Source: Planctomycetota bacterium
GTDB lineage: Bacteria > Planctomycetota > UBA1135 > GCA-002686595
NCBI GenBank assembly: GCA_030746555.1
Contig: JASLMK010000076.1
Coordinates: 1 to 64,000, forward strand
DNA length: 64,000 nucleotides
Direction of reading: 5' to 3'
Shown piece after piece: positions 7,449-30,877 of this stretch. Made by a program: the position numbers and the translations under genes. The notes beneath the pieces were generated by a model, which was given only the letters and a program-made list of their open reading frames with translations, was not told the DNA's origin and did not search any database. Numbering within the stretch: the first letter of the stretch is position 1; the number at the start of each line of letters is the position of its first letter.

Positions 7449-7674
7449 TTCCTGAGCCGAACTCTGCCCCGGGAATGCGTCCGCTGGCCGACCGAGCGGC
7501 CTGGAACGGTCGCCGCCGACAGCGAATGTCCGCAGCGACCTTCATACAGAACCCACACACTCCTGCGGCCCTGCTCCGGAGAAGCCACTCGTGACAGCGA
7601 CCCTCTCTGCCCTCGATACCTGCCCGCGGTTTGGATTCGACCACCTGGAGAGCGAGCCAGGAACGTCTGGACGG

Positions 7675-8562
7675 ATGCGCCGGAGGCCGGCTCGAGCCTG
7701 GGTGACGGGTGGGGCCCTTGCCATGCTGATCAGCGTCAGCTGCGGCGATTCATCGGCTTCGCCCGATGAGGCCGACAATCCCGGGGCGTCCGAGGAGGCC
7801 ACCGTTCAATACGAAGCTTCGGTGCTCTACGAGCGGTACTGTCTCAGCTGCCACGGCGAAGAGGGCTACGGCGACGGCGTCTCCTCCCCGCTGCTGTTCA
7901 TCAAGCCCCGTGACTTCAGCATGGGGATCTTCAAGTTCCGCACCACCCTCGGGGGAATGCCCACGGACGAGGACCTGTACCGGACCATCGAAGAGGGAGT
8001 CGGTGGGACCGAGATGAGTCCCTACGAGAACCTCCCCCCCGAGGCCATCAACGAGCTCGTTGCCTACGTCAAGAAGCTGACCGTGGGCGAGATCGAGGTC
8101 GCGGACGAGGAAGAGGCCAAGGAACTCGAGGGGCTCCAGGAGGTCATCGAGGACGACGGCTGGTACTACGCCCGCATCAACTGGTTCGAGTTCAGGGGCG
8201 TGGGCGAGAAGATCACCGTCCCGGAGCCGCCGAAGCCCACCCAGGAGCTCGTCGACCGGGGGAAGGAGCTGTTCACGGGAATAGCGACCTGCAACACCTG
8301 CCACGGCGACGAGGGTCTGGGCGACGGCACGGCCGGCCAGGATCTGGTCGACGACTGGGGCGTCCCCATCAAGCCGCGGAACTTCAAGGAAGACCAGTTC
8401 AAGGGTGGCTCCGATCCCGAGGACCTCTACCTGCGCGTGGTGATCGGGATCCCCGGTACACCGATGCCCTCCTCGAGGGGCGTCATCACGGACCCCGAGG
8501 ACGTATGGGCCATCGTCTACTACGTCTTGAAGCTCAAGGGCAGGCTCTACATTCCCAAGTGA
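7675..8562 (+). CDS. Di-haem c-type cytochrome lipoprotein
   Basis: ATG 7675 is preferred over an upstream GTG (7591), because it directly precedes a lipoprotein signal (ALAMLISVSC). The 295-residue product has two cytochrome c domains. CLSCH at residues 56-60 and CNTCH at 206-210 attach the haems, and MP in GTPMPSS is a likely axial Met of the second domain. Between them lies an acidic helical linker. It should sit on the periplasmic face of the membrane and pass electrons, most plausibly to the NosZ encoded three genes downstream. It is the first gene of a packed run, with ten bases to the next start. Confidence 0.9.
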   Translation: MRRRPARAWVTGGALAMLISVSCGDSSASPDEADNPGASEEATVQYEASVLYERYCLSCHGEEGYGDGVSSPLLFIKPRDFSMGIFKFRTTLGGMPTDEDLYRTIEEGVGGTEMSPYENLPPEAINELVAYVKKLTVGEIEVADEEEAKELEGLQEVIEDDGWYYARINWFEFRGVGEKITVPEPPKPTQELVDRGKELFTGIATCNTCHGDEGLGDGTAGQDLVDDWGVPIKPRNFKEDQFKGGSDPEDLYLRVVIGIPGTPMPSSRGVITDPEDVWAIVYYVLKLKGRLYIPK

Positions 8563-8572
8563 GGCGAGAAGC

Positions 8573-9211
8573 ATGGGCCACGAGGTACTCTGCTGGTTCG
8601 GTATCGTCCTGCTCGTCGGCGTCCAGGGCTGTGGCGGATCCGAAGCCCCCCCGGCCGAGGAGGAGCCGAAGCTCAACCTCGAAGCGGCGGGCAAGCGAAT
8701 CCTCGAGCGCAAGGAGCTGCCCATCGGAATGCCCGCGCCCGACTTCGAACTCGTGGACCAGGACGGGAAGACGGTCACCCTCGGCGACCTGCGAGGTCCG
8801 GTCATCGGCATCGGCTTCATCTACACGAGCTGCCCGGACGTGTGCGGACTTCTCGCGGCCAGCTTCCTCGATATCGAGAAGCAATTCGTGGAGGCGGTAG
8901 ACGAGGGTGACCTACAGTTGGTGCTCATCACGACCGACCCCGAGACCGACGTTCCCGAGCGCCTCAAGAAGTACACCGACGGGAATGGCGGTAAGTGGAG
9001 GTTCCTCACCGGCGACATGGCCGCGTGCGAGGAGGTCTGGGATGCCTACGGTGTCCAGCGGACCGTCAACCCGTCCGCCGATTACGTGTACCACACCTAC
9101 AAGATCGTCCTGATCGACGGCGACGGGAACATGCGCTACGAGTTCATCGGTCTGGACGATCCCGAAGCGGATCTCGTCAGGGACCTCACCTTCTTGCTTG
9201 GAGAGTCATGA
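8573..9211 (+). CDS. SCO1/SenC family copper chaperone lipoprotein (first copy)
   Basis: The 212-residue product starts with a lipoprotein signal ending GVQGC. It has a thioredoxin fold with the SCO copper site: C87 and C91 in TSCPDVC and the distal His174 in YHTYK. SCO proteins deliver copper to, or reduce the cysteines of, CuA centres outside the cytoplasm. Here the likely clients are the CuA protein and the C-terminal CuA domain of NosZ encoded downstream. GAGG precedes the ATG at a normal distance. The stop overlaps the start of a second SCO gene (ATGA). Confidence 0.93.
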   Translation: MGHEVLCWFGIVLLVGVQGCGGSEAPPAEEEPKLNLEAAGKRILERKELPIGMPAPDFELVDQDGKTVTLGDLRGPVIGIGFIYTSCPDVCGLLAASFLDIEKQFVEAVDEGDLQLVLITTDPETDVPERLKKYTDGNGGKWRFLTGDMAACEEVWDAYGVQRTVNPSADYVYHTYKIVLIDGDGNMRYEFIGLDDPEADLVRDLTFLLGES

Positions 9212-9867
9212 GAAACGACCTGTATCGAGTGCTTCCCTTCATCTTCGGAGGGGGATGCCTGCTGGTCGGTTGCGGTGCAGGCGATGCCACCGAGGCGTCG
9301 GCCAGCGAGCTGAACCCCGTGGAAGCGGCGCTGGTCCACGCGAACGAGCCCTTCATCAACCGGGACGAGCTGCTGGTACCGAAGGCCGCGCCCCCGTTCG
9401 CCCTCACCGACCAGAACGGAGGGCCGGTGACGAATGAGGACCTGGCCGGGAAGGTCGCCCTCATCGGCTTTGTCTTCACGAGCTGTCCGGACATCTGCCG
9501 CAATATCACGGCGACGTACCTGGACATGCAGGACGAGTTCGCGGACGACGTGGATGAGGATGATCTCGAGCTCATCCTGATCACGACGGACCCCGAGCGT
9601 GACACCACCGAACAGGCCAAGAAGTACACCGAAGGCTTGGGGGGGAAGTGGGCCTTCCTGACCGGGACAGCCGACGAGCTGGACAAGGTCTGGAACTCCT
9701 ACCACGTGACTGTCGATCAGCACGTGGATGCCGAGAAGAGCAAGCACAGCTGGATGGTCGTCCTCATCGACCGCAGCTCGAAGATCCGGATTCGCTACGT
9801 GGGCCAGGATGTCCCCAGGGACATCTTGACCGCCGACGTCCGCTCAATGTTGGAGCAGAAACCATGA
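9208..9867 (+). CDS. SCO1/SenC family copper chaperone lipoprotein (second copy)
   Basis: ATG 9208 overlaps the previous stop as ATGA. The 219-residue product has a lipoprotein signal ending LLVGC and the full SCO copper set: C93, C97 (TSCPDIC) and His180 (KHSWM). It resembles the first copy in the core but differs strongly at the N-terminus, with an extra segment before the thioredoxin fold, so the two are not a recent duplication. One may insert copper and the other act as thiol reductase, or each may serve one of the two CuA clients nearby; this division is inference. Confidence 0.93.
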   Translation: MRNDLYRVLPFIFGGGCLLVGCGAGDATEASASELNPVEAALVHANEPFINRDELLVPKAAPPFALTDQNGGPVTNEDLAGKVALIGFVFTSCPDICRNITATYLDMQDEFADDVDEDDLELILITTDPERDTTEQAKKYTEGLGGKWAFLTGTADELDKVWNSYHVTVDQHVDAEKSKHSWMVVLIDRSSKIRIRYVGQDVPRDILTADVRSMLEQKP

Positions 9868-10385
9868 AACAGAAGATGACTGCTGGTGCCACCGTCTGGT
9901 TGGGTTTGGTCGCCGGTCTCGTGGCAGCGTGCGGAGGAAGCACCGGTCCGGTGACCAGCGAGGCCAAGGTGGGCGAGTATATCGTCGGGACCAAGCGGTT
10001 CGCCGGTCCCTACCAAAGAGTCGCCGGTGCGTCTCGGGAGGCCGACGAGGAGCTCGGGCCCGCTGACACGACGATCGAGCTCAAGGCGGCCATCGCCGGC
10101 TGGGACCCCCCTGAGTTCACGGTCAAGAAGGGCGATGTCGTCGAGATCAAGCTCATCGGCACCGACAACGGACAGCTCCCGGCACTCACCGGGATAGAAA
10201 AGAGGTTCACGGGCCACGGCTTCCACGTCTACGCCTACGACATCTGGGCCAACGGGCTGCGCGCCGGTGTCGAACGAACAGTCAAATTCAGGGCCAGTGA
10301 AGCGGGTACCTTCCCCTTCGAGTGCGTCGTCTTCTGCAGTCCGGACCACTACAAGATGGTCGGCACCATGACCGTGACCGAGTAA
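9864..10385 (+). CDS. Free-standing CuA-type cupredoxin lipoprotein
   Basis: ATG 9864 overlaps the SCO stop (ATGA). The 173-residue product has a signal with LVAAC as lipobox and one cupredoxin domain. The CuA loop is complete: C154, C158, H162 and M165 in CVVFCSPDHYKM, with H118 or H121 as the first His ligand. CuA centres are two-copper electron entry sites known from cytochrome oxidase subunit II and NosZ. Unlike subunit II it has no two-helix hairpin. Its place between SCO genes and nosZ suggests an electron carrier or a copper donor for NosZ. A lone CuA protein in a nos cluster is unusual. Confidence 0.9.
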   Translation: MKQKMTAGATVWLGLVAGLVAACGGSTGPVTSEAKVGEYIVGTKRFAGPYQRVAGASREADEELGPADTTIELKAAIAGWDPPEFTVKKGDVVEIKLIGTDNGQLPALTGIEKRFTGHGFHVYAYDIWANGLRAGVERTVKFRASEAGTFPFECVVFCSPDHYKMVGTMTVTE

Positions 10386-10403: not shown

Positions 10404-12353
10404 ATGATCAAAATAAGGAAGACTCACGTTGGGGTGCTCTCCGGAGCCGCCTTGGCCGTATCCGCCGCAGCTCTGCTCTGCCTGCCGTCCTGCGAACAGG
10501 GTTCTTCGGCCCCCTCCGCGGGCGCCAGCCCCTTCGCTCGTCCCTTCCCGATGCCCCACGGGTATTGGAAGAAGACGGACGAGTTCTACTGCTTCGCGAG
10601 TGGTGGTCAGCAAGGGGGCATCTACGTCTACGGGATGCCGTCGATGAAGCTGCTCTCGGAGATCCCCATCTTCAACGTCGACCCACGCTGGGGGTGGACC
10701 ACCGCGAACCCCGAAGTGCGCGAGATGATGACGAACCCCCGGACTGGGGAGGTCCTCATCTCCGGTGACACGCACCACCCGGTCTTGAGCCGCAAGGACG
10801 CGAAGTACGACGGAAAGTGGCTGTTCATCAACGACAAGCGCAACGCGCGGATCGCACGGATGAACCTGGCCACGTTCAGGACCGAGGAGATCCTGTGGAT
10901 GGAGAACGTCCCGGGCGGGATGCACGGATTCAGCTCCGGCCCCAACACGGAACTCCTCATCGGGAACATCGAACTCGAGTCCTATCCGGCCAAGGAAATC
11001 CGCGACTACCTGGGCGCCGAGGTCGACATCGACCTGATCAAGGGCCCCTACGTGTCGTGCGTGTTTGGGGTGAAGGTCGCGCCCGACGGGACGATGAAGA
11101 CCGCCTGGCAGGTCTGGGGACCGTGGCAGTACGACCTCGCCCGCGCGGGCTGGGGCGAATCCGACGGCTGGTTCATCAACACCGCCTACAACACGGAGCG
11201 TTCGGTCAACACGGTCGGGATGTTCAAACGTCCGGAGGACTACGTCTTCTACTGGAACATCGCGAGCATCGAGAAGGCCGTTGCGGATGGCAAGTTCATC
11301 ACGACCGAAGAGGCACCCGACGTGCCCGTCATCAAGTGGTCTGATATCGAACTGTACGCGGCGCCCTGCCCCTTGAACCCCCACGGGCTGGATATCGACC
11401 CGACCGGTCGCTACGCCCTTTCCAGTGGCAAGGCGACGACCCTCGTCCGCCACTACGACTTCCGCAAGGTCAAGACGGCCATCGAGGAGCAGAACTTCAT
11501 CGGCGAGGAGTTCGGCGTCCCCATCATCGACAAGGAAGCGATCTCCGGTGACATCGACACGGGCCTCGGCCCCACGCACATCGAGTACGACAACGAGGGC
11601 TACTGCTACATCGGATTCTTCGTGGACTCCGACGTGAAGAAGGTCGCCCTGGGCGATCCGTGGGACAAGAAGCACGGTCATGAGCCCTGGTCGGTGGTCG
11701 ACACGATCCCCGCCCACTACTCGGTCGGACACCTCATGGTGCCGGGCGGTGATTCGGCCGAGCCCTACGGGAAGTACCTCGTCATCATGAACAAGCTGAC
11801 GAAGGACACCTTCCTGCACCATGGACCTCTCATCTGCGAGAACCACGAGCTGTACGACATCGAAACGGTCCCGGCACCTCTGATCGATCAGATGTCGCTG
11901 CCGCCCGAGTCTCACTACGCGCAGGGCATTCCGGTGAGCCTGGTCACCCAGCACGCCAAGTCGGTCTACGACCTGCCCTCCACCCTCCCGACTCCGGGTG
12001 TGGCCTACGACTACGACAACAAGAAGGCCACGGTGACCATGACCTGTGTGAGGAGCTTCTTCACCCCCGACATGTTCACGGTACCACAGGGCTGGGACGT
12101 CGATGTCCAGATCCAAAACGTCGAGATGTCCCTGGACATGACCCACGGCTGGGCATTGACCGGCTACGACGTGATGGAGAGCATCGATCCCGGCGAGCAC
12201 AAGACGCTGCAGTTCAAGGCCACCCACGAGGGCGTGTTCTGGTACTACTGCCTGTGGTTCTGCAGTGAACTCCACATGGAGATGCGCGGCCGGATGATCG
12301 TCATCCCAGAGGCCGAATGGACCCCCGAGCTCGAGTGGAGCGCGCTGAAGTAG
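10404..12353 (+). CDS. nosZ: Nitrous-oxide reductase NosZ (Sec/lipoprotein-signal type)
   Basis: The 649-residue product reduces N2O to N2. All CuZ histidines are seen: H124 and H125 in DTHHP, then H174, H327 (NPHG), H392, H443 and H504. The CuA domain is complete with H581, C616, C620, H624 and M627 (CLWFCSELHMEM). The spacing matches known NosZ closely. The N-terminus (SAAALLCLPSC) is a Sec lipoprotein-type signal with no twin arginine, as in the clade II (Sec-dependent) type. AGGA lies five bases before the ATG. The usual nosD, nosF, nosY and nosL are absent from the window, so maturation genes must lie elsewhere or be replaced by the neighbours. Confidence 0.95.
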   Translation: MIKIRKTHVGVLSGAALAVSAAALLCLPSCEQGSSAPSAGASPFARPFPMPHGYWKKTDEFYCFASGGQQGGIYVYGMPSMKLLSEIPIFNVDPRWGWTTANPEVREMMTNPRTGEVLISGDTHHPVLSRKDAKYDGKWLFINDKRNARIARMNLATFRTEEILWMENVPGGMHGFSSGPNTELLIGNIELESYPAKEIRDYLGAEVDIDLIKGPYVSCVFGVKVAPDGTMKTAWQVWGPWQYDLARAGWGESDGWFINTAYNTERSVNTVGMFKRPEDYVFYWNIASIEKAVADGKFITTEEAPDVPVIKWSDIELYAAPCPLNPHGLDIDPTGRYALSSGKATTLVRHYDFRKVKTAIEEQNFIGEEFGVPIIDKEAISGDIDTGLGPTHIEYDNEGYCYIGFFVDSDVKKVALGDPWDKKHGHEPWSVVDTIPAHYSVGHLMVPGGDSAEPYGKYLVIMNKLTKDTFLHHGPLICENHELYDIETVPAPLIDQMSLPPESHYAQGIPVSLVTQHAKSVYDLPSTLPTPGVAYDYDNKKATVTMTCVRSFFTPDMFTVPQGWDVDVQIQNVEMSLDMTHGWALTGYDVMESIDPGEHKTLQFKATHEGVFWYYCLWFCSELHMEMRGRMIVIPEAEWTPELEWSALK

Positions 12354-12373: not shown

Positions 12374-13870
12374 ATGATGCAGGCGTTGATCGTCGGGCTG
12401 CTGGCGAGCTGCGTATGGACTCCGGTTTCCTTGGCTCAGAGCCTGGGAGCCCGGAGTCCCGTAACCGCGAAGGCGCACGCTAAGATCACGCTGAGCGTCG
12501 AGATCCCCAATCCGGTGGGATCCAAGTACCTCAACCTGTGGATCCCGTACCCGGTCTCAGACGCATATCAGACCATCGAGAACGTCGAGGTCACCGGCAA
12601 CTTCCAACGCCAGGGCGTGTACCGCGAGACCGACTTCGGGAACACGGCGCTCTACCTGCGCTGGTTGCAGGTCCAGGGCAACGCCACCGTGAACTTCACC
12701 TTCGAGGTCAAGCGACACGAACGCGTGGTCAGGGACCTGGTCGCTAGCGAGAAGTCTCCTTCCATCCTGGCAGAGCCCTTCTTGGAGGTCGATCCAGGGG
12801 TGGTGTTGGCCCTCGCCGATATCGTGGAGGCCATCGACGTCGGCGACAAGCCGATCGTGGATAGGGCTCAGGCCATCTATGACTACATAGTCGACAACTT
12901 CGAGAGGGACCCAAGAATCGTAGGCTGTGGCACGGGGAACGTCCCCACCTTCCTGAACGTGCGCAAGGGCAAGTGCGCGGACTTCTCCAGCACGTTCATC
13001 GCGCTCGCGCGATCCGTGGGCGTACCCGCGAGGGAGGTCTACGGCCTGCGCATCTCGAAGGAGGCCAGGGAAGACATCTCGGACGACTACCACTGCTGGG
13101 CAGAGTTCTTTGCACCTGAAATCGGCTGGGTGCCTGTGGACCCCTCGGACGTGGTCAAGTTCGCCAGCAAGAACGGTCTCGCCCTCGATGACCCTCAGAC
13201 TCTTGAAAAGCGCGAATACTACTTCGGAGCCGTCGACGAGCACCGCGTGAGGTTGGGTACCGGCCAGGAGATCCTGCTCGCACCCGTCCAGTTGCTCGGC
13301 CCGTTGCCCTACTTCATGTGCCCGTACCTCGAGGTCGGCTACGAGAGCAACTGCGAGGGCGCCGACCTCAAGAAGATGAATCTGAAGGGCCTGACCTTCA
13401 CGGCTCCCTGCCACCCGATCGTCGAACGCCGTTCGCTGATCGGAGTCGGCGAAGAGGCACCTGTATTCAGCGGCCAGACCGTGAGTGGGGAGTCCTTCGA
13501 TGTGGCTCCGTTCATCGGCTCGAAGTACCTGATACTCAGCTTCTTCGCCACCTGGTGAGGACGCTGCATGTGGGAGTCCGGTGGACTCCAGAAGGTGAGC
13601 GAGGAATACGCGGACCGCGACGTCCGGGTCGTTCGGGTCTCATCCAACGAGAAACGTGAGAAGGTCTCCAGCTTCGTCAAGGACACGGGGGCCACGTTCC
13701 CGGTCCTCCTGGACATGGACAGCACGATCTCCGAGCAGTTCGGGATCAAGTACTTCCCGACGACGGTCATCATCGGCAAGGACGGCAAGGTCCGCCACGT
13801 TGCCGGCCTCCTTCCAGAGGAAGACTTGCGCACGGCCGTTGACGCAATCCTGAGAAGAGACGGGCAATGA
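12374..13870 (+). CDS. Exported transglutaminase-like/thioredoxin fusion with in-frame UGA in the CxxC position (candidate selenoprotein)
   Basis: Read through UGA 13556-13558 (codon 395), the gene encodes 498 residues. A signal peptide is followed by a transglutaminase-like domain with triad C201 (GKCADF), H240 (YHCWAEF) and D256 (VDPSD). A TlpA-like thioredoxin domain begins near residue 365. The redox site reads FFATW-Sec-GRC-MW, where family members have WCxxC; cis-Pro is in FPTT and the fold continues intact to the end. Sec therefore replaces the attacking Cys exactly. A perfect SECIS-like hairpin lies at 13573-13589. Gene finders would stop at 13558 and call a separate small protein from ATG 13568. 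The start is ATG 12374 or 12377, after GAGAGG. The final TGA overlaps the next ATG. It probably reduces exported thiols or copper ligands for NosZ. Confidence 0.88.
13573..13589 (+). promoter_or_regulatory. Candidate bacterial SECIS hairpin for the thioredoxin UGA
   Basis: GGAGTCC (13573-13579) and GGACTCC (13583-13589) form a perfect seven-pair stem with the three-base loop GGT. An eighth T-A pair is possible across one bulged G. The loop begins 22 bases after the UGA and starts with G, matching the known bacterial SECIS pattern for SelB recognition. The stem is GC-rich and stronger than chance would readily give at this exact position. Confidence 0.8.
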
Positions 13871-14475
13871 ACGACACGCGCGGCGGAAGATGCTCTTGGC
13901 TCTTGCTTGTCGCTGGGGTCTTCCTACTGGCATCTGCCTGGCTCCCACTTCTCACGGTGCGGTTTACGTCGCCGCAGTACCCTACCGATAAGCCGACCCT
14001 GGCCGTCTACGCCGACAAGATCACCGGCGCTACCCACGAGTTCCAGGTGCTCTCGCACTACGTTGGGATCGTCTTCCCCCCGGAGGTCCCCGAGATGGAG
14101 TCGGGGTTGCTCAGGTGGGTCTTCGCCGGCTTGGGCGTAGCCGCGCTGGTCGCGTCGGGTCTCCCCCGGCGGACCCGCAGGATCTCGGCCTCGCTGCTGA
14201 TCCTGGGCATCCTCTTTCTAGCTGCCTGGGGGCAGTACCGGTTCTATCAGTCAGGGCACACCCTGGACCCCGAGGCACCGATGCGGATGGCGGTGAAGCC
14301 CTTCACTCCCCCCCTGTTCGGCTGGGTGAAGATCCACAAGATCGCCATCTACCACCTGCCACACATCGGCTCGGCCCTCATGCTCGGGGCTCTGGGGTCG
14401 CTCATCCTGTCGCTTCGTACGGTGTCGCACACCCGTCGCCACCCCACCGACACGGAAGTACCGCACACTCCGTAA
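13867..14475 (+). CDS. Integral membrane protein closing the nos operon
   Basis: The 202-residue product overlaps the selenoprotein stop as ATGA. It has four likely membrane helices: WLLLVAGVFLLASAWLPLL, a central pair around WVFAGLGVAALVA and ASLLILGILFLAAW, and a C-terminal one. A soluble loop after helix 1 (TSPQYP...YADKI...VLSHYVG) resembles small membrane proteins I recall beside nos or copper-enzyme genes, but this is from memory. His residues near the third loop (KIHKIAIYHLPHIG) could bind metal or haem. The last 18 or so codons are encoded by REP copy 2 (14416-14469), so the original C-terminus has been replaced. Confidence 0.75.
   Translation: MNDTRGGRCSWLLLVAGVFLLASAWLPLLTVRFTSPQYPTDKPTLAVYADKITGATHEFQVLSHYVGIVFPPEVPEMESGLLRWVFAGLGVAALVASGLPRRTRRISASLLILGILFLAAWGQYRFYQSGHTLDPEAPMRMAVKPFTPPLFGWVKIHKIAIYHLPHIGSALMLGALGSLILSLRTVSHTRRHPTDTEVPHTP
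14416..14469 (-). repeat. REP copy 2
   Basis: This minus-orientation copy contains the reverse complement of the hairpin unit (ACGGTGTCGCACACCCGT). It lies inside the 3' end of the membrane-protein gene and 38 bases before the RAYT start. It is inverted relative to copy 3 on the other side of the RAYT gene. Confidence 0.85.
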
Positions 14476-14506: not shown

Positions 14507-15547
14507 ATGGGACGCAGACCGAGAGCGGACGGGCCGGGCACCTGGCACCACGTCATCAACCGCGGCATCGCCAGGCGGCCGCTGTTCGAGACCCGTTCCG
14601 ACGCGCGCTTCTTCCTGGCGCGCCTGGTGCGCCAGGTCCGCCGCGGGCGCGTCGAAGTCCACGCCTACTCCCTCCTCACGACCCACTTCCACCTCCTCCT
14701 GCGCAGCCCCATTGGGGAGCTCTCCGAGGCGATGCGCCGGGTCCAGAACGAGCACTCCCGGCAGTTCAACCGCCGCCGCAAGCGCGACGGCTCCCTCGTG
14801 CGTGGCCGGTTCTTCTCCAAGCTGGTCGACTCCATCGAGTACCGTCGGGCCGTCGTGCGCTACATCGACCGCAACCCCCTGGGTGCCCGCATGGCGACGA
14901 GGATCGGAGAGCACGAACTGGGGAGCGCGCGGCACTACCTCCATGGGAACGGCCCCCGCTGGTTGAGTCGGGGTTGGGTGGAATCCGACGCGTGCACGCT
15001 CACCGGCCGGGACGCATTCTCGCCAGTTGCCTACCAGGAGGCGTTCGGGTCTCTCGCGCTCGGCGATGGGCGCCACCTCGCCGAGCTGATGGAGGCCCGA
15101 CAGCGCTCCCATGCCGGCGACGATCCTCTCGAGGACCTGATCGGCGCCGCGCCAGAGCGGGTGCGTGCTTGGATGGTTCGCAAGGCGCGCCTGGCAGACG
15201 GCCATCGCCCGGGCCTGCCCGTCTGTGGGCTCCGGGCCGTGCGCGAAGCCCTCGCTGCCGACGAGAGCCTACGAGGCCCATGGTTGGTCGAGGAGGGGGA
15301 GCTGCTCCGGCGGGGCGGGGGATTCGCGGCTCTCGGGCTGGCGCGCGACTTGTGCGGTCACTCCCTGGAGGAGCTCGCGCGAAGCTGTGGCGGCTCTCGC
15401 GCCCGCGCGCGCAGGTTGATCGCGGGGCACCGGCGCTTCCTGATCTCCGATCTCGCCCATGCGGAGCGCGCATCCCTCCTGGCCCACGCCGCCCTCGAGC
15501 TCTGCCACGGCCGCCGCCCGGCCCCCGTTTCTCACCCAGGCGGCTGA
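14507..15547 (+). CDS. REP-associated tyrosine transposase (RAYT, Y1 HUH family)
   Basis: The 346-residue product has an IS200-like Y1 transposase domain in its first 135 residues. The HUH motif is H60-F-H62 in TTHFHLLL, and a Tyr follows in VVRYIDRNPLGAR (probable nucleophile, residue 119). The remaining 200 residues form a helical C-terminal extension with a likely helix-turn-helix near the end (GHSLEELARSCGGSRARARRL), as in longer RAYTs. RAYTs nick single-stranded REP hairpins and are thought to spread them. It is flanked by REP copies 2 and 3 in inverted orientation and three more copies lie in the window, which supports the assignment independently. Confidence 0.9.
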   Translation: MGRRPRADGPGTWHHVINRGIARRPLFETRSDARFFLARLVRQVRRGRVEVHAYSLLTTHFHLLLRSPIGELSEAMRRVQNEHSRQFNRRRKRDGSLVRGRFFSKLVDSIEYRRAVVRYIDRNPLGARMATRIGEHELGSARHYLHGNGPRWLSRGWVESDACTLTGRDAFSPVAYQEAFGSLALGDGRHLAELMEARQRSHAGDDPLEDLIGAAPERVRAWMVRKARLADGHRPGLPVCGLRAVREALAADESLRGPWLVEEGELLRRGGGFAALGLARDLCGHSLEELARSCGGSRARARRLIAGHRRFLISDLAHAERASLLAHAALELCHGRRPAPVSHPGG

Positions 15548-21286: not shown

Positions 21287-22756
21287 ATGAAGACGGTCGC
21301 ACATTGGTTGGTGGTGGGGGGCACCGCCCTGGCCTCCGGGTTCTACGACGGTGCGGCAGCGGCCGCAAAACCGAGCATGAACCCAATCGTAGCGGGCCTT
21401 GATTTCGATGACGCAAAGGTCGTGGCGGTCCGTGCGAAGCGCGTGCTCGTGCGCCCCGGCGTGACCCTCTCCGACGCGGTCGTCCTGGTGCGCGACGGGG
21501 TGATCGAAGCGGTGGGCGAGGACCTCGCCGTCCCCGAGGGCGCGCGCGTGGTCGAGGGCTCGGTCTGTTGCGCGGGCTTCATCGATCCCTGGTCCGCCCT
21601 GGGCCTGGAGTCGGGGGTCCTCTCCGACCCCAGCCCCGACGCGGCGACCCGAACCGCGGACGGCCTAGATCCCTACGAGGGCGACCACCTGCGGACCCAG
21701 GCCCTGGCCGCCGGCGTGACCAGCGTTCGCCTGCAAGGCGGCCGATCCGCGGCGATCGGCGGGCTGGGCGCGATGGTGCGCCTCGATCCCGACCTGCCAG
21801 CCGGCGCCTCCCTGCTCGACGACCGGACGTCCCTCGCCATGGCCGTCGGCCTCTCGGTCGACGGCGGCAGCCAGTTCATCCAACGCCCCGACGGCACCTT
21901 CACGATGATCTCGGGCGAGCGGGCCGTCGACCCCTTCGACCGCCTCTCCCAGATCGAGAAGGTCGCCGCCAAGCTCGATGAGGGCCGCGCCTACCTCATG
22001 GCCGGAGTCGAGTACCGCCACGAGCTCGAGGCGTGGGAGCTCGCGATCGCCGAGCAGGTCGAGGAGATCGAGAAGGACTTCAAGAAGGCCAAGAAGGCCC
22101 GCGACAAGAAGGTCGCCGAGGCCGAGGAGGAGGGCGAGGAGCACAAGGAGAAGAGGTACAAGGAGGACAAGAAGCCCAAGGCGCCGAAGTACGACGCCGA
22201 GAAGGAGGCCCTGGCGCTCGCCGCCGACGGCATGGTCCCCCTCGTGGTCGAGGTGCACCGCGCCGCCGAGATTCGAAACCTCTTGGCGATGACCGAGCGC
22301 TTCGATCGCCTGCGGCTGGTGATCGCCGGGGGCTCGGAGGCCCTCCACTCCGCCGACGAGCTCGCCGAGCGCGGGGTGCCGGTCATCGTCTGGCCCTCCC
22401 TGCGGGGCACCCGCCACTCCGACGAGCTCACCGGCGGCGGCCTGGAGCTCGCTGGAGAGCTCGCCGCGCGCGGCGTCACGGTGCTGTTGGGCAGCGGCGG
22501 GCGCGACGGGGAGACGACCCGCGACCTGCCCCTGCTGGCCGCCCTGACCGTGGCCCACGGCTTCGAGCGCGAAGCCGCCTTCGAGGCATTGACCCTGGGC
22601 GCCGCGACGACCTTCGACCTCGCCCATCGCCTGGGCAGCGTCGAGGCCGGCAAGGAGGCCGACCTGCTCGTCCTCGACGGCGATCCGCTCGACACCACCA
22701 CCCGCGTCTTGCACGTGATCTGCGGCGGCCGCGAGGTCGCCAACCGAGAGGACTGA
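21287..22756 (+). CDS. Amidohydrolase-family protein 1 (metal motif lost), exported
   Basis: This is the first of ten packed genes. AAGGGGAA precedes the ATG at good distance. The 489-residue product has an N-terminal export segment, then the composite beta-sandwich typical of amidohydrolases (AVVLVRDGVIEAVGEDL). Where active members have HxH it reads GFIDPWSALG, and the late catalytic Asp region reads GSGGRDGET, so the usual metal ligands are missing. The C-terminal LGSVEAGKEADLLVLDGDPL is classic. Residues about 250-305 form a Lys/Glu-rich helix. Catalysis by the normal mechanism is unlikely. The stop overlaps the next start (TGATG). Confidence 0.85.
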   Translation: MKTVAHWLVVGGTALASGFYDGAAAAAKPSMNPIVAGLDFDDAKVVAVRAKRVLVRPGVTLSDAVVLVRDGVIEAVGEDLAVPEGARVVEGSVCCAGFIDPWSALGLESGVLSDPSPDAATRTADGLDPYEGDHLRTQALAAGVTSVRLQGGRSAAIGGLGAMVRLDPDLPAGASLLDDRTSLAMAVGLSVDGGSQFIQRPDGTFTMISGERAVDPFDRLSQIEKVAAKLDEGRAYLMAGVEYRHELEAWELAIAEQVEEIEKDFKKAKKARDKKVAEAEEEGEEHKEKRYKEDKKPKAPKYDAEKEALALAADGMVPLVVEVHRAAEIRNLLAMTERFDRLRLVIAGGSEALHSADELAERGVPVIVWPSLRGTRHSDELTGGGLELAGELAARGVTVLLGSGGRDGETTRDLPLLAALTVAHGFEREAAFEALTLGAATTFDLAHRLGSVEAGKEADLLVLDGDPLDTTTRVLHVICGGREVANRED

Positions 22757-23874
22757 TGCCGATGCTGGAGACCGTGACCCTCATGGCCGCCCTCGCCGCG
22801 GGCGCCGATCGCGTCGATCTGGACGCGCCGCTCGTCGGCGAACGCACGACCGTGTTCCGTGCGAGCGCCGTCCACCTCGGGGATGGGCGCGTCCTCGACC
22901 GGGGCGTCGTGTTCGTCCAAGACGGCGTGATCCGCGAGGTCGGCGTCGGCCTCGAGCCCCCCGACGGGGCGCACGTCGTCGACCACCCAGGCGACCTCTC
23001 ACCGGGGCTGGTCGCCCTGCACGGCTTCGAGGGCGGCGGCGGCGAGCTCGTCGACACCACGCGGCCGATCTTGCCCAAAGCGGACGCGGCGACCGCCTTC
23101 GACCCCGACCACCCTGACTTCGGCCGTAGCCTCGACTGCGGGATCACCACCGTGGTGCTCTCGCCTCCGGCCACCGCCCTCTGCCCTGGCACGACGGCGG
23201 TCGTCAAGACCTCCGGCGGCACCGTCGTCCGCCCGCGGGCCCAGCTCGTCGTGGGTCTGTCCTCGACGGCCCTCAAGTCCAACGAGTTCCCCACGAGCTT
23301 CGCCGGGGCCCTCGCCGCGCTGTCCGAGCGCCTCGAGGAGCCCACCGGGGCCTTTCGCGCGGCGGCGAGCGGCGAGCTAGGCCTGTTGGTGAAGGCCGGG
23401 ACCCGCTCCCAGATACAGCGCGCCCTCGGCTTCGTCGTCGAGCACCGCCTGCGCGGGGCGCTGTACGGCTCGTACTGGGCCGAGGACCTCGTGGGGGAGA
23501 TCAAGGCCTCGGGGCTCTCGGTGGTCTGCACGCCCTCCGATCCGGGCGACGACGCCCGCTGGGCGCGCTCGATCGCGGCCCTCTCCGCCGCCGGCGTGCG
23601 CTTGGGCTTCGGCCTCGACGCCCCCGGCCGCCATCCCCACTGCCTGCGCTTCGGCGCGGCGGTGGCCGCACGGGGCGGGATGACCAACGAGGCGGCGCTC
23701 ACCGCCCTGACCGGCGACGCGGCGGCCATCGCCGGCGTCTCCGATCGCCTCGGTCGCATCGACCGCGGCCTGGACGCGGACCTGGTGCTGTGGAGCGGGG
23801 ACCCCCTGGACCTCGCGAGCGAGATCACCGCCGTCTACGTGGACGGCCAACGAGTCCGAGGAGGTGAGCGATGA
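22756..23874 (+). CDS. Amidohydrolase-family protein 2 (metal motif degenerate)
   Basis: The 372-residue product starts inside the previous stop codon. It shows the family frame: VVFVQDGVIREVG at the N-terminal sandwich, SPGLVALHGFEGGG where HxH should be (only one His), and LGRIDRGLDADLVLWSGDPLD at the end. The middle is shorter than in typical members and lacks a clear run of His ligands. A hydrophobic N-terminus (LETVTLMAALAAG) could be a weak export signal. It is probably a structural or binding partner of the other products. The stop overlaps the following ATG by four bases (ATGA). Confidence 0.82.
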   Translation: MPMLETVTLMAALAAGADRVDLDAPLVGERTTVFRASAVHLGDGRVLDRGVVFVQDGVIREVGVGLEPPDGAHVVDHPGDLSPGLVALHGFEGGGGELVDTTRPILPKADAATAFDPDHPDFGRSLDCGITTVVLSPPATALCPGTTAVVKTSGGTVVRPRAQLVVGLSSTALKSNEFPTSFAGALAALSERLEEPTGAFRAAASGELGLLVKAGTRSQIQRALGFVVEHRLRGALYGSYWAEDLVGEIKASGLSVVCTPSDPGDDARWARSIAALSAAGVRLGFGLDAPGRHPHCLRFGAAVAARGGMTNEAALTALTGDAAAIAGVSDRLGRIDRGLDADLVLWSGDPLDLASEITAVYVDGQRVRGGER

Positions 23875-25103
23875 GCCTTGCGATCACGATCACGACCGTC
23901 CTGGTTTGCGCGGGCGACGTCGAGGCGTCGAGCGCGCCGATGACCGCCACGGGAGGCCAGAACCTCGCCGTCTACGCCGATGCGGTCTACACCTCCACCG
24001 GCAAGGTGATCGAGAACGGCATGGTGCGCGTGCGGGACGGGAAGATCCGTGTCGTGAGCAAGGGCGAGGCGGGCGAGGGCGACGTCCATGTGGCGGCCGT
24101 CACCGCCGGGATGATCGACCTCTCCGGCCGCATCTCCCCCAGCGGGGACGTCGAGGAGTCGAACGAGATCACGCCGCACGTGCGGGCCACGGACGCGATC
24201 GACTTCTTCTCGGTGAGCTGGGCCCGCCAGCTGCGTAGCGGCGTGACGACGGCGATGATCTCGCCGGGGGACGAGAACGTCATCAGCGGCCTCTGTGCGG
24301 TCCTCAAGACCGGCGGCCCGCGGACCTTGTCGAGCCGCACCCTCGCGGCTGACGCCGCCCTGCGCGGCGCCTTCGGCAGCCAGCCCAGCCGGCGCAACCA
24401 CGCAGCCTTCGGCAGGCCGACCGACTTCTACTCTCGGCGGCCGACGACTCGCATGGGCGTCGAGTGGGAGTGGCGCAAGGCCATGTACGACGCCATCGCC
24501 GCGGCAGGCGACCCGGCGCGGGCCTTCGCGGGCCACGAACGGCTGATGGAGGTCCTACGGGGCGAGTTGCCCCTGGTGGTCCAGGCTTGGACCACCCAGG
24601 ACATCCGCACCGCGGTGTTCCTCGCCGAGGAGATGGCCGCCCACGTCGAGGGCGGAGTCCGGTTGGTCATCGACGCCGGCGCGGAGGCCTGGAAGGAGCC
24701 CGCACTGCTCGTGCGCACCAAGGCGGCGGTCATCCTGCCGCCCTTCGACCACGACGGGCGCACGAGCGACGGGGCCTTCATGGCCTGGAACGTCGCCGCG
24801 CTCTTGGCCGAGAAGGGCGTACCGATCGCCCTCTCTTCCCACAACGCGGGCGCCGCGGCCGACCGGCTCGCAGTGCAGGGCGCCTGGGCCCGGCGCGGGG
24901 GCCTGTCCTTCGAGGACACCCTGGCCGCCGTCACGATCGCTCCGGCCCGCATGGTGGGCGTCGACGAGCGCGTCGGCTCGATCGAGGTCGGCAAGGACGG
25001 CGATCTGGCCCTTTGGAATGGGACACCCTTCGAGGCCGGCTCTCGCGTCGTGGGCGTCGTCCTCGGCGGCGAGCTGGTCGTCGACCCGCGAGGAGAGGAA
25101 TGA
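23871..25103 (+). CDS. Amidohydrolase-family protein 3 (metal motif lost)
   Basis: The 410-residue product has a short hydrophobic N-terminus (LAITITTVLVCAG) and the family scaffold (GMVRVRDGKIRVVSKG ... VGSIEVGKDGDLALWNGTP). At the position of HxH it reads TAGMIDLSGRISP, so both metal His are absent. The region VTTAMISPGDENVISG corresponds to the conserved VTTV strand that follows the metal site. It shares this pattern with proteins 1, 2, 5 and 10 of the array. It overlaps both neighbours by ATGA and is clearly part of one polycistronic unit. Confidence 0.84.
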   Translation: MSLAITITTVLVCAGDVEASSAPMTATGGQNLAVYADAVYTSTGKVIENGMVRVRDGKIRVVSKGEAGEGDVHVAAVTAGMIDLSGRISPSGDVEESNEITPHVRATDAIDFFSVSWARQLRSGVTTAMISPGDENVISGLCAVLKTGGPRTLSSRTLAADAALRGAFGSQPSRRNHAAFGRPTDFYSRRPTTRMGVEWEWRKAMYDAIAAAGDPARAFAGHERLMEVLRGELPLVVQAWTTQDIRTAVFLAEEMAAHVEGGVRLVIDAGAEAWKEPALLVRTKAAVILPPFDHDGRTSDGAFMAWNVAALLAEKGVPIALSSHNAGAAADRLAVQGAWARRGGLSFEDTLAAVTIAPARMVGVDERVGSIEVGKDGDLALWNGTPFEAGSRVVGVVLGGELVVDPRGEE

Positions 25104-26620
25104 GCGTGAACCTCAGCACAGACCAACGATCCGATCTCGATCATCCGGCTAGCAACCCCGAGTCCACGAAGATGAAGCACCTCTCCCGGGCCCTGGCCCT
25201 CTCCTGTGTCGCGGCCGCCTTCGCCGCCGCTCCCGCAGCCGCCGCCGGCGACGGCACCATCGTCCTGAAGGTCGGCAAGGTCATCACCAACGCCGGCGCG
25301 CCGATCGAGAACGGCACGATCGTGATCGAGAACGGTCGCATCGTCGATGTCGGCCCCGACGCGGCGGGACGCTGGGACGCGCCCGTACGCGAGTACCCAG
25401 ACCTGGTCGCCTTCCCCGGCTTCGTGGAGGCGCTCACCAACCGGGGGATGGACCGCCCCAACGAGAACGTCGACGTTGCGCCCTTCCTCGACGTTCGCGA
25501 CTCGATCGACCCGGTCAACTTCTACTTCGAGGACTGCCTGCGCTGGGGTGTGACGACCATCAACGTCCAGCACGGACCGGGCTGCGTGATCGGCGCCCAG
25601 GGCCACGTCGTCAAGCCCTTCGGCATGACCGTGGAGCAGATGAGCGTCCGGCCGCGCTCGGGGATCGTGATGGCGGCCTCGCCCAAGGGCGGCAAGTCAC
25701 GCGCGACCCAGGCCCAGGCCCTGCGGAGGGCCTTCAGCGGCCTGCGGCGCTACCTCGAGGGCGTCGTGCAGGAGAAGCGCGACGGGCTCGACTACGCCAC
25801 GCGCGAGGCGCGCTACCAGGGGCGGGAACCCGACGAGGAGACGGCACGCGGCCGCGTGATGGCCGGCTCGGGCTGGAAGGTCGAGGGCCTCGAGCTGGTT
25901 CCGCGCTGGGAGATCGACGAGAAGCAGGAGCCCCTGTTGCGGCTGGTCGAGGGCAAGGTCCCCGCGTTCATCTACTGCGGCTCCGCGATGGACGTGCGCG
26001 TTGCGCTCGAGGTGGCCACCGACAACGGCTTCGTCGACCGCACGACCCTGGTGTTGTCGTCGAGCTGCTGGAAGGCGGCGGACGAGATCGCGGCGGCGGG
26101 CGTGCCCGTCATCCTGAGTGCGACCCTGACGGCGATCGAGCGCGACCCGGTGACCGGCGAGGAGATCGAGACCTTCGTCCCCGGCGTGTTCGCAAAGAAG
26201 GGCGTCGAGTTCGCCCTGCGCTCGTCCAACGCCTCGACCCGGTCCCTGTGGTACCAGGCGGCGGCCTGCATCGGCCACGGGATGGAACGCGAGGCCGCCC
26301 TGGCGGCGGTGACGACGGCGCCGGCGCGCATGCTCGGCCTCGAGACCCGGGTCGGGACCCTGGAGAAGGGCAAGGACGGGAATGTCTTGTTGTTCTCGGG
26401 CGATCCCTTGAGCGTGACCTCGTTCTGCGAGTTCGTCTTCATCGAAGGCGAACAGCGCTACGACCGCTCCCAGGACGTGCGCAACACGCACCTCAACACC
26501 GGCGCGCAGCCGGAGAACACCGCCCCCGAGGAGGGAGCGGGCGAGGGGGATGATGCCCCAGACGAGGACGGAGACGAGGACGACGAGGAGAAGGAAGACG
26601 AAGACGGAGAGAAGGACTGA
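25100..26620 (+). CDS. Amidohydrolase-family protein 4 (metal motif lost), acidic tail
   Basis: ATG 25100 overlaps the previous stop and follows a strong AGGAGAGG. An in-frame ATG at 25172 would place a clean signal peptide (LSRALALSCVAAAFAAAPAAAA) at the very N-terminus and may be the true start. The product (506 or 482 residues) carries GTIVIENGRIVDVGPD and LGTLEKGKDGNVLLFSGDPL. The metal site position reads FPGFVEALTNRG, without His. A Cys-rich strand reads SSSCWKAADEI. The last 35 residues are almost entirely Asp/Glu/Gly. It is exported and probably inactive as a hydrolase. Confidence 0.83.
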   Translation: MSVNLSTDQRSDLDHPASNPESTKMKHLSRALALSCVAAAFAAAPAAAAGDGTIVLKVGKVITNAGAPIENGTIVIENGRIVDVGPDAAGRWDAPVREYPDLVAFPGFVEALTNRGMDRPNENVDVAPFLDVRDSIDPVNFYFEDCLRWGVTTINVQHGPGCVIGAQGHVVKPFGMTVEQMSVRPRSGIVMAASPKGGKSRATQAQALRRAFSGLRRYLEGVVQEKRDGLDYATREARYQGREPDEETARGRVMAGSGWKVEGLELVPRWEIDEKQEPLLRLVEGKVPAFIYCGSAMDVRVALEVATDNGFVDRTTLVLSSSCWKAADEIAAAGVPVILSATLTAIERDPVTGEEIETFVPGVFAKKGVEFALRSSNASTRSLWYQAAACIGHGMEREAALAAVTTAPARMLGLETRVGTLEKGKDGNVLLFSGDPLSVTSFCEFVFIEGEQRYDRSQDVRNTHLNTGAQPENTAPEEGAGEGDDAPDEDGDEDDEEKEDEDGEKD

Positions 26621-29505
26621 TGCTCTCGACGATCCTCCTCTGCCTCGCTCCCCTCGGCGGTAACGGCGAGGTCGCCGTCCAGGCGGGCACCATCCACACG
26701 GTCGACGCGACAGGCCTGATCGAGGGCGGCGGGACCGTCTTGATCGACGACGGGGTGATCGTCGCCGTGGGCCCCAGCGATGGGCCGGACGCGGTCCCCC
26801 TGCCCATCGGCGTGCGCGTCGTCGACTACGGCCCCGACGCGGTCATCGCCCCCGGCCTCGTGGCGGCGGACTCCACCCTCGGAGGCAGGATCGCCGGGCC
26901 GCGCACGGCGGACGCTTCCCTGCGCGGTACGGATCACTTCAACCCCTACGGCCGCTACACCAGCTCCCTGGCCGGCGGCGTGACGACCGCCTACATCGCG
27001 CCCGCGCGCTCCCGCCTCCTGGCGGGTCAGGGCGCGGTCGTCAAGCTCGCGGGCGAGCCCGGCCCCGACCGCATCCTCGCCGACGCGGCCGCCCTGCACG
27101 GGTCGATCGCGAGTGACGCCCGCAGCACGCCGGGGTACTGGGAGCCTCCGATCCCCGCCACGGTAGACGTCGGCATGGGCGTCGAGCGCAAGCAGCTCCC
27201 AAAGACGACCGCCGGCGCCCTCGTGGCGCTCGGCGAGATCCTCGACCTCGCCCGCAGCAAGTCGGCGTCGGAGGAGTACGGCCCTCAACTCGGCCCGGAG
27301 CTGGCGAGCCATCTCGAGCGCGGCACCCCATGGCGCATGCGCGCCGAGGACGCCGAGGAGGCCGGCGCCCTGTTGGACTTCTTCGGCGGCAACGGCCTGC
27401 CGTTGGTGATCGCCGGGACCCACGGCGCGGGTGAGACCGCCGAGCGCATCGCGGCGGCGGGCTCCTCGGTGGTGCTCTCCGTTCCGGTTCGACCCGGCGC
27501 CAGCCTCTTGGACCGCGGCAAGGGCGAGACCTCGGTGTGGCCGGAGTTCGGCGTGGCCGCGAAGCTCGCCGCCGCCGGCGTTCCCTTCGCCATCGCCCCC
27601 GGCGGTCAGGTCTCCGCATCGAATCTGCGCTTCGCCGCCCGAGTCGCCTCGCGCGGCGGTCTGGACGCGGCACAGGCCCTGGAGGCGATCACGATCGCCC
27701 CCGCGCGCATCCTCGGCGTGAGCGAGCGGGTCGGCAGCATCGCAGTCGGCAAGGACGCGGACCTGTGTGTCCTGAACGGCCCGCCCCTGGACATGACCTC
27801 GAGCGTGCGCGCCACCTGGGTGGGCGGTGAGCCCGCCTGGTCGGTCGAGGACGGCGCCACCGTGCTGGAGGTCGACGAGCTCTTCGTGGGCGACGGGACC
27901 ATCCTCGCCCCCGGCCAGCTCCTGATGGACGAGGGCCGCATCGTCGAGGTCGGCCGAAAGGTCGCCCACCCCGCCGGGTGTACGGTCGTGCGCGGCCGGG
28001 CGGCCATGCCCGGCGTCGTGGATGCCTTGGGCCATCTGGGGCTGGAGGGCTCGGGCAAGGTCCCCAAGACGCGCTTTGCGTTCGAGGCGATCATCGAGCC
28101 CGGTGACGAGGTCGACCGCCGCGTCGCCCGCGCGGGCGTGACGACGGTCGTCATGACCCCCCGGGGCGTGAACAAGACCGGTGCTCCCGCCATGGCCTAC
28201 AAGCCCGCGGCGAGCAACCTCGAGCGGATGGTCGTGGCCGACCCGGCAGTCGTCCATCTCAACTGGACCGACTCCAACCGCTACTCCGCGGGCGCGGTCG
28301 TGCGCGACAGCCTCGCGAAGGCCCTCGAGTACAGGAACAAGTGGGATGAGTACGAGAAGGCCATCGCCGCCTGGACGCCGCCGCCGCCCGAGCCGCCTGA
28401 AGAGGAGGACGAGGACGAGGACGAGGATGGAGACGAAGAGGACGAGAACGGCGAGGGCGAAGAGGAGGACGAGGACGACGAAGAGGACGAGGACGCCCCG
28501 CCCGCGCCGGTGACCGGCGTGTGGGTCGCGGAGATCTCCTTGGAGGGTGGCGACCCGACGCGCCTGCGCCTGCAGCTCTTCGACGAGGCAGGCGCGCTCT
28601 CCGGCCGCCTGCGCTGCGACACGCTCTCCGCCGAGCTCGTCCGCGTCGAGGGAGCCCTTGCGGAGGGCGAGCTGGAGCTGGAGGGCGTGGGGACCGGCGG
28701 GCGCCTGCGCCTCACGGCCGAGGTCCAGGAGGTCGAGAAGAAGAAGAAGAAGAAGAAGCGCAAGAAGGATGACGACGAGCCGGAGCCCGAGCCGCAGAAG
28801 CGCAAGCTCGTGGGGACCGTCGCCCAGGGCGAGGCTTCGTTCGCCTTCAGCGCGGAGCAGACTTCGACCGAGTACCGCGTCGCCGGGCGGCCCGAGCGGC
28901 GCAAGGTCGTTGAGGAGAAGGTCTCCGCCCCCAAGGGGAAGCCCAAGTCTCCAGGTGTCAACCCAGACCTCGAGCCCCTGCGGCGTGCGATGGAGGGGAG
29001 CGGCGCCGTGGCCGTGATCGTCCACCGCCAAGACGAGATCCTCGCCTGCGTCGACGCCTTCGAGGCCGTCGGGATCCGCCCCGTCCTGCGCGGAGCCACG
29101 GACGCCTGGAAGGTGGCCGAGCGACTGCGAGGCAGGGTGGCGGGCGTGCTGCTCGACCACCGAGTGGTCGTGGTCGATGCCGCCGAGGGCTACCGCGCAC
29201 GGCGCAACCGCTACGCCGAGTTGGCCGCCGCGGGCGTCCCCGTGGCCTTCCACAGCGCCGCCGAGGAGGGTGCCGCCGAACTGCCGATGGTGGCGGCCTA
29301 CGCCGTCTCCCAGGGCATGAGTCCCAGCGGCGCCCTGCGCGCGCTGACCGTCGATGCGGCGGCGATGATGGACATCGACGATCGCGTCGGGCGCCTCGCC
29401 GCCGGATTGGACGCCGATGTCCTGTTGCTGGACGGCAGCCCCCTCGAGCTGGACACGAGCATCGAGCGCGTTTGGGTCGCCGGCCGCGAGATCGGAGAGC
29501 GCTGA
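26620..29505 (+). CDS. Double amidohydrolase-family protein 5 (two fused degenerate domains)
   Basis: At 961 residues this is twice the family length. Domain 1 (about 1-410) ends with VGSIAVGKDADLCVLNGPPL; domain 2 starts immediately with EVDELFVGDGTIL and ends with VGRLAAGLDADVLLLDGSPL. Neither keeps HxH: domain 1 reads APGLVAADSTLGG and domain 2 reads MPGVVDALGHLGLE. Domain 2 is interrupted by an Asp/Glu run (about residues 585-628), a beta-rich insert (TGVWVAEISLEGG) and a Lys run (KKKKKKKRKK). The insert resembles a small lipocalin-like barrel. Translation is coupled to protein 4 (TGATG). Confidence 0.83.
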   Translation: MLSTILLCLAPLGGNGEVAVQAGTIHTVDATGLIEGGGTVLIDDGVIVAVGPSDGPDAVPLPIGVRVVDYGPDAVIAPGLVAADSTLGGRIAGPRTADASLRGTDHFNPYGRYTSSLAGGVTTAYIAPARSRLLAGQGAVVKLAGEPGPDRILADAAALHGSIASDARSTPGYWEPPIPATVDVGMGVERKQLPKTTAGALVALGEILDLARSKSASEEYGPQLGPELASHLERGTPWRMRAEDAEEAGALLDFFGGNGLPLVIAGTHGAGETAERIAAAGSSVVLSVPVRPGASLLDRGKGETSVWPEFGVAAKLAAAGVPFAIAPGGQVSASNLRFAARVASRGGLDAAQALEAITIAPARILGVSERVGSIAVGKDADLCVLNGPPLDMTSSVRATWVGGEPAWSVEDGATVLEVDELFVGDGTILAPGQLLMDEGRIVEVGRKVAHPAGCTVVRGRAAMPGVVDALGHLGLEGSGKVPKTRFAFEAIIEPGDEVDRRVARAGVTTVVMTPRGVNKTGAPAMAYKPAASNLERMVVADPAVVHLNWTDSNRYSAGAVVRDSLAKALEYRNKWDEYEKAIAAWTPPPPEPPEEEDEDEDEDGDEEDENGEGEEEDEDDEEDEDAPPAPVTGVWVAEISLEGGDPTRLRLQLFDEAGALSGRLRCDTLSAELVRVEGALAEGELELEGVGTGGRLRLTAEVQEVEKKKKKKKRKKDDDEPEPEPQKRKLVGTVAQGEASFAFSAEQTSTEYRVAGRPERRKVVEEKVSAPKGKPKSPGVNPDLEPLRRAMEGSGAVAVIVHRQDEILACVDAFEAVGIRPVLRGATDAWKVAERLRGRVAGVLLDHRVVVVDAAEGYRARRNRYAELAAAGVPVAFHSAAEEGAAELPMVAAYAVSQGMSPSGALRALTVDAAAMMDIDDRVGRLAAGLDADVLLLDGSPLELDTSIERVWVAGREIGER

Positions 29506-29587
29506 TGTCGATCACGATCGCCCCGAGCCCCTGCGTTTCCAGCGCAACGACAGGCCGCAGAGCGGCCCAGCCGTAGGAAGCCGATCC

Positions 29588-30877
29588 ATGAAGCGACCCT
29601 TCCACAGCCTGCTCCCCCTGGTCCTGTCCGGGGCTGCCTTCGCCTCAGGGCCCGGGAATCCGGGCGAGCCCGGCGTCGAGCAGGGGCTCGCCCTCAAGGC
29701 GGCCAAGGTCCTGACCGTTCCGGTCGACGGCCCCCAGGTCGTAGACAACGGCGTCGTGCTCGTCCACGACGGCCGCATCGAGGCTGTCGGGCCAGCGGCG
29801 ACGACCGCGATCCCAAAGGGCTGGGAGACCATCGACCTCGGCGAGCGCTGGCTCGCGCCGGGCATGATCGACCTGCACAACCACGTAGCGGGCGGGCTGA
29901 GAGACCTCAACGACATGGTCTACCTGACCAACCCGGGGCTGCGTGCCTCGACGACCATCACACCGCGCAACAGCAACGTGCAGCGCGCGCTCGGCGGCGG
30001 CGTCACTTCGGTGCTGTTGATCCCCGGATCGGGGACGAACGTCGGAGGTCAGGGTGTCCTGGTGAAACTCGGCCACCATTCCTACGAGGAAGTCGAGATC
30101 CGCAATCCCGGCTCGTTGAAGCTGGCCCAGGCGGGCAACCCCGAGCGCTTCCTGTTCGGCGTGGGGCGTTCGTTCATGAACTGGAACACGCGCAACACCT
30201 TCCGGCGCGGCGTCGCCTACGCCAAGCGCTGGGAGGCGCACGAGCGCGAGGGCGGCGAGGGCCCGGCGGTCGACCCGCAGTTCGAGGTCTTCCGACCGCT
30301 CTACACCAAGCAGACCCAGGTCTCGACCCACACCCAGATGTACCAGGTCGTGATGATGACTGTCTTGATGATCAAGCAGGAGCTGGGCATCGATGTGTAC
30401 ATCGACCACGGCACCTTCGACGGCTGGCGTGCCGCGCCGCTGGCCGAAGCCGCCGCGGTCCCAGCGATCCTGGGGCCGCGAAACATCTCCGTGCCCTCCC
30501 GGAGGATGATCGACTGGACCGGCAGCAACCCCGAGCGCATCCAGGGCGTGGCGGCGGGCTACCAGGACATGGGGCACACGATGATCGGCTTCAACACCGA
30601 CGCCCCGGTTCTGCCATCCGAGGAGCTCTTCTTCCAGGCGAGCATGGGGGTGCGCTACGGCTTCCGTTGGGACGAGCTGCAGTCCGTGCGAGGCGTGACG
30701 ATCGTTCCGGCTCTCGCCGCGGGCATCGCCGATCGCGTCGGGAGCCTGGAGGCAGGCAAGGACGCGGACATCCTCATCATCGGGGGCGACCCGGTCGATC
30801 CCCGGAGCATGGTGGAGGCGGTGCTCGTCGACGGCGTGCGCGTGTACGACGCCGGGAGGGACGGCCAGCGCTTCTAG
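29588..30877 (+). CDS. Amidohydrolase 6, metal motif intact, exported
   Basis: The 429-residue product has a signal peptide (FHSLLPLVLSGAAFA). It is the first member of the array with the metal motif: PGMIDLHNHVAGG contains HxH. Later candidate ligands are in QVSTHTQMYQ, YIDHGTFDG and the catalytic Asp in FNTDAPV. It shares long stretches with proteins 7 and 8 (NPGLR, IPGSGTN, VRYGF), so these three form a sub-family created by tandem duplication. It probably hydrolyses an amide or cyclic amide outside the cytoplasm; the substrate is unknown. An 82-base gap separates it from protein 5, where a secondary promoter could lie. Confidence 0.9.
   Translation: MKRPFHSLLPLVLSGAAFASGPGNPGEPGVEQGLALKAAKVLTVPVDGPQVVDNGVVLVHDGRIEAVGPAATTAIPKGWETIDLGERWLAPGMIDLHNHVAGGLRDLNDMVYLTNPGLRASTTITPRNSNVQRALGGGVTSVLLIPGSGTNVGGQGVLVKLGHHSYEEVEIRNPGSLKLAQAGNPERFLFGVGRSFMNWNTRNTFRRGVAYAKRWEAHEREGGEGPAVDPQFEVFRPLYTKQTQVSTHTQMYQVVMMTVLMIKQELGIDVYIDHGTFDGWRAAPLAEAAAVPAILGPRNISVPSRRMIDWTGSNPERIQGVAAGYQDMGHTMIGFNTDAPVLPSEELFFQASMGVRYGFRWDELQSVRGVTIVPALAAGIADRVGSLEAGKDADILIIGGDPVDPRSMVEAVLVDGVRVYDAGRDGQRF

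Follow-up and report, generated by a model that had tools for sequence, protein, structure and literature searches.

A predicted selenocysteine-containing transglutaminase-thioredoxin fusion protein in a planctomycete nitrous-oxide reductase cassette

The gene at 12374–13870 of the window (the whole 64,000-nt stretch of planctomycete DNA that was analysed) very probably encodes a selenoprotein with the architecture laid out in Table 1, a judgement that does not extend to the role in copper handling discussed below. Its internal UGA at 13556 is, to judge from the nucleotide sequences compared here, almost certainly read as selenocysteine (Sec). According to our model, SelB and tRNA-Sec would decode this UGA under the guidance of the hairpin at 13573–13589, giving rise to an exported product that combines an N-terminal transglutaminase core with a C-terminal ResA/TlpA-like domain (active site U395-GR-C398) and that would form one part of a seven-gene N2O reduction cassette.

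The gene runs as a single frame between ATG 12374 and the terminal stop TGA 13868–13870, the latter overlapping the ATG of the membrane protein gene (ATGA). The lone internal stop is TGA 13556–13558 at codon 395, just as the first-pass annotation had described a frame broken solely at the position of the attacking Cys. The TGA lies in the context FFATW-U-GRC-MW and is followed by FPTT and a full C-terminus, so that the earlier statement that the fold runs on past the UGA to the cis-Pro and the C-terminus also stood. The protein displays both a WCxxC-type site (W-U-G-R-C) and the cis-Pro (FPTT) of thioredoxin folds. In the PF01841 core, C201, H240, and D256 are candidates for a Cys-His-Asp triad and are invariant in three family members. 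Export is predicted from the N-terminal hydrophobic stretch. With three sequences as input, AlphaFold modelled the whole protein poorly (pLDDT 53), and the thioredoxin part alone was used for structural comparison.

Table 1. Coordinates of the Sec-encoding gene, its predicted elements and the surrounding nos cassette in the window.
Feature	Position	Strand	Remarks
Di-haem cytochrome c, first cassette gene	7591..8562	+	conserved cassette
SCO1/SenC copper chaperone a	8573..9211	+	CxxxC...H
SCO1/SenC copper chaperone b	9208..9867	+	CxxxC...H
CuA-like cupredoxin	9867..10385	+	conserved cassette
Divergent nitrous-oxide reductase NosZ	10404..12353	+	GDxHHP, CLWFCSELHMEM, DMTHG retained
Transglutaminase-core/ResA-like thioredoxin selenoprotein gene, predicted exported	12374..13870	+	498 aa; Sec395; U395-G-R-C398
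Probable signal peptide	12374..12439	+	hydrophobic stretch ALIVGLLASCVWTPVSLA, cleavage near AQS; by sequence inspection
Transglutaminase-core domain PF01841, residues 151-257	12824..13144	+	Pfam 3e-24
ResA/TlpA-like thioredoxin domain PF00578/PF08534, residues 358-476	13445..13801	+	Pfam AhpC-TSA/Redoxin 3e-22
UGA probably read as selenocysteine, N-terminal attacking position of UxxC	13556..13558	+	TGA in L051, TGT in L052
Predicted bacterial SECIS hairpin GGAGUCC-GGU-GGACUCC	13573..13589	+	loop GGU 21 nt after UGA
Membrane protein of planctomycete nos clusters	13867..14475	+	overlaps selenoprotein stop

Three family members were found, with TGA at codon 395 in two. The closest relative of the window protein (L051; Planctomycetota SP2985, sequence-identical to G078), which stems from another genus of the same family, is 68% identical and has the TGA, and the next one (L052; Arabian9_MAG_43, that is G160) is 51% identical and has TGT (Cys) at the same codon, which is the distribution that the first-pass annotation had anticipated. 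The Cys form of L052 demonstrates that selenium is not indispensable; as tRNA-Sec and selB are present in the L052 genome, the Cys form is carried there though Sec decoding would be possible. Searches of the class and the phylum yielded no full-length members beyond matches to the L051 and L052 sequences, no relatives of the protein were found in IMG/VR, and a search of plasmids returned, for the most part, transglutaminases standing alone, and at no place was 80% of the selenoprotein covered. For the window gene versus L051, dN/dS was 0.16 in the part preceding the TGA and 0.20 in the part following it, and purifying selection, as far as it can be read from this gene pair, is unchanged past position 13556.

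The predicted SECIS hairpin starts after 14 nt from the UGA, consists of seven perfect pairs and a 3-nt loop, folds alone at −10.3 kcal/mol and lies within all four limits published for bacterial SECIS elements (model of PMC13188914), in line with the earlier description of a seven-pair hairpin with loop GGT following the bacterial SECIS pattern. When the same peptide was re-coded synonymously, 1.4% of the trials gave seven perfect pairs in the SECIS window; among 1461 codon positions from four gene stretches close by, there was no such case. In the TGA homologue L051 the hairpin is letter-for-letter identical: codons 400–406, from which it is formed, are the same in 7 of 7 cases, four 4-fold degenerate codons included, versus an identity of 35–43% at 4-fold degenerate codons elsewhere. 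The Cys homologue L052 has a weaker stem (5 bp, −5.8 kcal/mol), which may be explained in part by its WESxGL peptide. Because the hairpin is partly dictated by the WESGGL peptide and because a 5-bp stem is retained in the Cys homologue, we consider the hairpin, taken alone, as modest evidence.

The search for a Sec machinery that had been suggested along with the original reading found selA, selB, selD, and tRNA-Sec in the window genome, all with scores above the curated cut-offs: SelB 297 bits (324 with its C-terminal piece), SelA 484 bits, SelD 328 bits, and tRNA-Sec (anticodon UCA) 72 bits. In the L051 MAG, selB was not found, which may be a gap given its completeness of ~90%; the MAG has tRNA-Sec, and selA is present in the conspecific G078. 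Within the host planctomycete class, selA was identified in 139 of 154 genomes (52 of the 53 good ones), and Sec use is nearly universal in this class. The Sec-rich window genome encodes nine PF00578 domains with a TGA, each at a peroxidatic or UxxC position. The eight proteins besides the one described here (L085, L086, L089, L090, L091, L092, L093, and L096) comprise AhpC- and BCP-like peroxiredoxins and several WUGPC proteins of ResA/TlpA-like type, among them L089 (G000:C36:45909-46259, minus strand) with a second in-frame TGA (DEF-U-ERG) off the redox motif. The selD frame (L018; G000:C126:434-1375) likewise contains one TGA, and SelD of this genome may itself be a selenoprotein; a motif scan did not locate the Sec position in this frame.

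As the window stems from a metagenome-assembled genome in 137 contigs, one could suspect a pseudogene with a nonsense mutation, or a sequencing error at a true TGC or TGG codon. We regard this as very improbable, since an independently assembled genome of another genus has the same TGA, coding constraint persists beyond it, and TGAs occupy redox-Cys positions nine times in the window genome. Conservation of the TGA together with the hairpin in L051 refutes this explanation in practice; an error or a nonsense mutation, the latter already thought unlikely in the first-pass annotation, would hardly be expected to arise again in a second genus along with the hairpin. Hardly any more credible is the idea that the UGA acts as a true stop, so that a free transglutaminase would be released and the thioredoxin part synthesized separately from ATG 13568. 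This ATG, the sole restart candidate right after the UGA, is indeed preceded by a purine-rich stretch, but it is replaced by AAG in L051 and by AAT in L052, and for this lack of conservation internal re-initiation was rejected; furthermore, the product would possess neither the first strand nor the UxxC motif, and the L052 homologue is a single unbroken protein. The frame being open on both sides of TGA 13556 would also be compatible with a changed genetic code in which UGA specifies another amino acid. However, the selenoprotein gene itself, the two SCO genes, and the gene for cytochrome c all end in UGA as their ordinary stop codon, so the code is not reassigned, and a full Sec machinery is present in the same genome; the probability left for this alternative is vanishingly small.

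UxxC and UGC modules of the ResA/TlpA type are already known as selenoproteins (PMC13188914, Table 1). The protein predicted here has in common with the ResA-like WAxxUGC family NF041054, UGC TlpA, and UxxC Prx-like thiol:disulfide oxidoreductases a thioredoxin domain of ResA/TlpA type with a Sec residue in the redox motif and an occurrence in Sec-decoding bacteria. Against NF041054 it reached 42.6 bits, below the cut-off of 300, and it lacks the WAxxUGC motif; in contrast to these relatives, it carries Sec in the first position of the motif (U-G-R-C), and its thioredoxin domain follows a transglutaminase core on the C-terminal side. The nearest match by sequence as well as by structure is Bacillus ResA (1st9, 2f9s), with TM scores of 0.91–0.92 for the AlphaFold model of the thioredoxin part and an identity of 28–29%. 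Unlike in Bacillus ResA, Sec replaces the first Cys, a transglutaminase core is fused and the gene belongs to a nos cassette. Extra domains are also found in Trx-fold selenoprotein fusions from marine metagenomes (Prx-PP2C, UGSC-Unknown_1, and others; PMC2398784), none of which, in the main text of that publication, is named as having a transglutaminase domain. The word 'transglutaminase' is absent from the selenoprotein review PMC13188914, and in the open literature we found no description of a transglutaminase-core fusion selenoprotein, in agreement with what the first-pass annotation had stated, nor of Sec in a nos cassette, nor of a cassette placement with a divergent NosZ and two SCO chaperones.

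The first-pass annotation had placed the gene in a nos operon, and it does directly follow nosZ. The order of the seven genes (cytochrome c, SCO, SCO, cupredoxin, nosZ, selenoprotein, membrane protein) is shared by the window, L051, and L052. The NosZ of the window scores 483 and 342 bits against the curated models TIGR04246 and TIGR04244, respectively, below the cut-off of 625 that applies to each, and its CuA and CuZ ligand motifs are present both in an alignment to 9f8x and by pattern. Together with its counterparts (5996–7930 in L051 and 5947–7920 in L052) it groups in a clade with full support and a long branch, the exact position of which should be viewed with long-branch caution; identities are 85% and 72% inside the clade, and do not exceed 38% in comparison with the NosZ from 16 further genomes of this phylum. 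In the class and phylum searches, the fusion protein was seen solely beside this divergent NosZ. At several conventional nos loci the membrane protein lies closely behind nosZ, leaving no space for a fusion gene, as in L108, where nosZ ends at 3345 and the membrane protein starts at 3433. The membrane protein, which had no Pfam or NCBIfam match, may in view of this recurrence behind nosZ be looked upon as an unnamed nos gene. Just past the cassette, an open reading frame at 14507–15547 resembles REP-associated (Y1-type) transposases, and successive frames at 21287–30877 resemble paralogous amidohydrolases, both by eye, the latter from the translations.

As to function, in the role that we favour the selenol of Sec395 would attack disulfides of the SCO CxxxC motifs and/or the CuA Cys pairs of NosZ and the cupredoxin, and the attacked Cys pairs would stay reduced for copper loading. 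A selenol would offer quicker attack and resistance to over-oxidation. Binding or processing of the client may fall to the transglutaminase-like domain, which may alternatively act independently. A reductant role of this kind, for which gene neighbourhood and analogy to TlpA speak, is in our estimation a reasonable possibility, if somewhat short of probable. Bradyrhizobium TlpA reduces ScoI and CoxB and is likewise a periplasmic thioredoxin-like reductase with an SCO protein and a CuA site as partners (PMC6696091). It differs from the protein described here in being membrane-anchored, Cys-based and without a transglutaminase domain, and in serving cytochrome oxidase; moreover, the SCO/CuA partnership proposed for the selenoprotein, unlike that of TlpA, is suggested by gene neighbourhood. 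The selenoprotein could have another task, such as reduction of apocytochrome c for the di-haem cytochrome c in the manner of ResA or CcmG, or general repair of envelope thiols, and both the resemblance to ResA as the nearest solved structure and the presence of the di-haem cytochrome c in the cassette would fit this idea. We deem it unlikely, though by no means negligible, as nosZ adjoins the gene, two SCO genes belong to the cassette, and some conventional planctomycete nos loci have a related cytochrome c with no fusion protein in view (L109, L112). Returning to the reductant role, we would tentatively picture a deeply divergent planctomycete NosZ lineage with a maturation cassette of its own, in which a fusion of Sec reductase and transglutaminase may ready the SCO/CuA thiols, a composite picture that is itself rather unlikely to hold in all its parts.

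Standard annotation ends at the UGA, whereby the thioredoxin half is lost, and a selenoprotein architecture that escapes it in this way is added here. The finding puts a predicted Sec residue into a cassette whose NosZ belongs to a clade scoring below the cut-offs of curated models, and it draws attention to a class of planctomycetes where selA is near-universal and ResA/TlpA-type proteins are frequently Sec-using. If the functional reading is true, selenium would be tied directly to N2O respiration, a link that would then be directly testable, and selenium may assist the assembly of an enzyme that breaks down a greenhouse gas.
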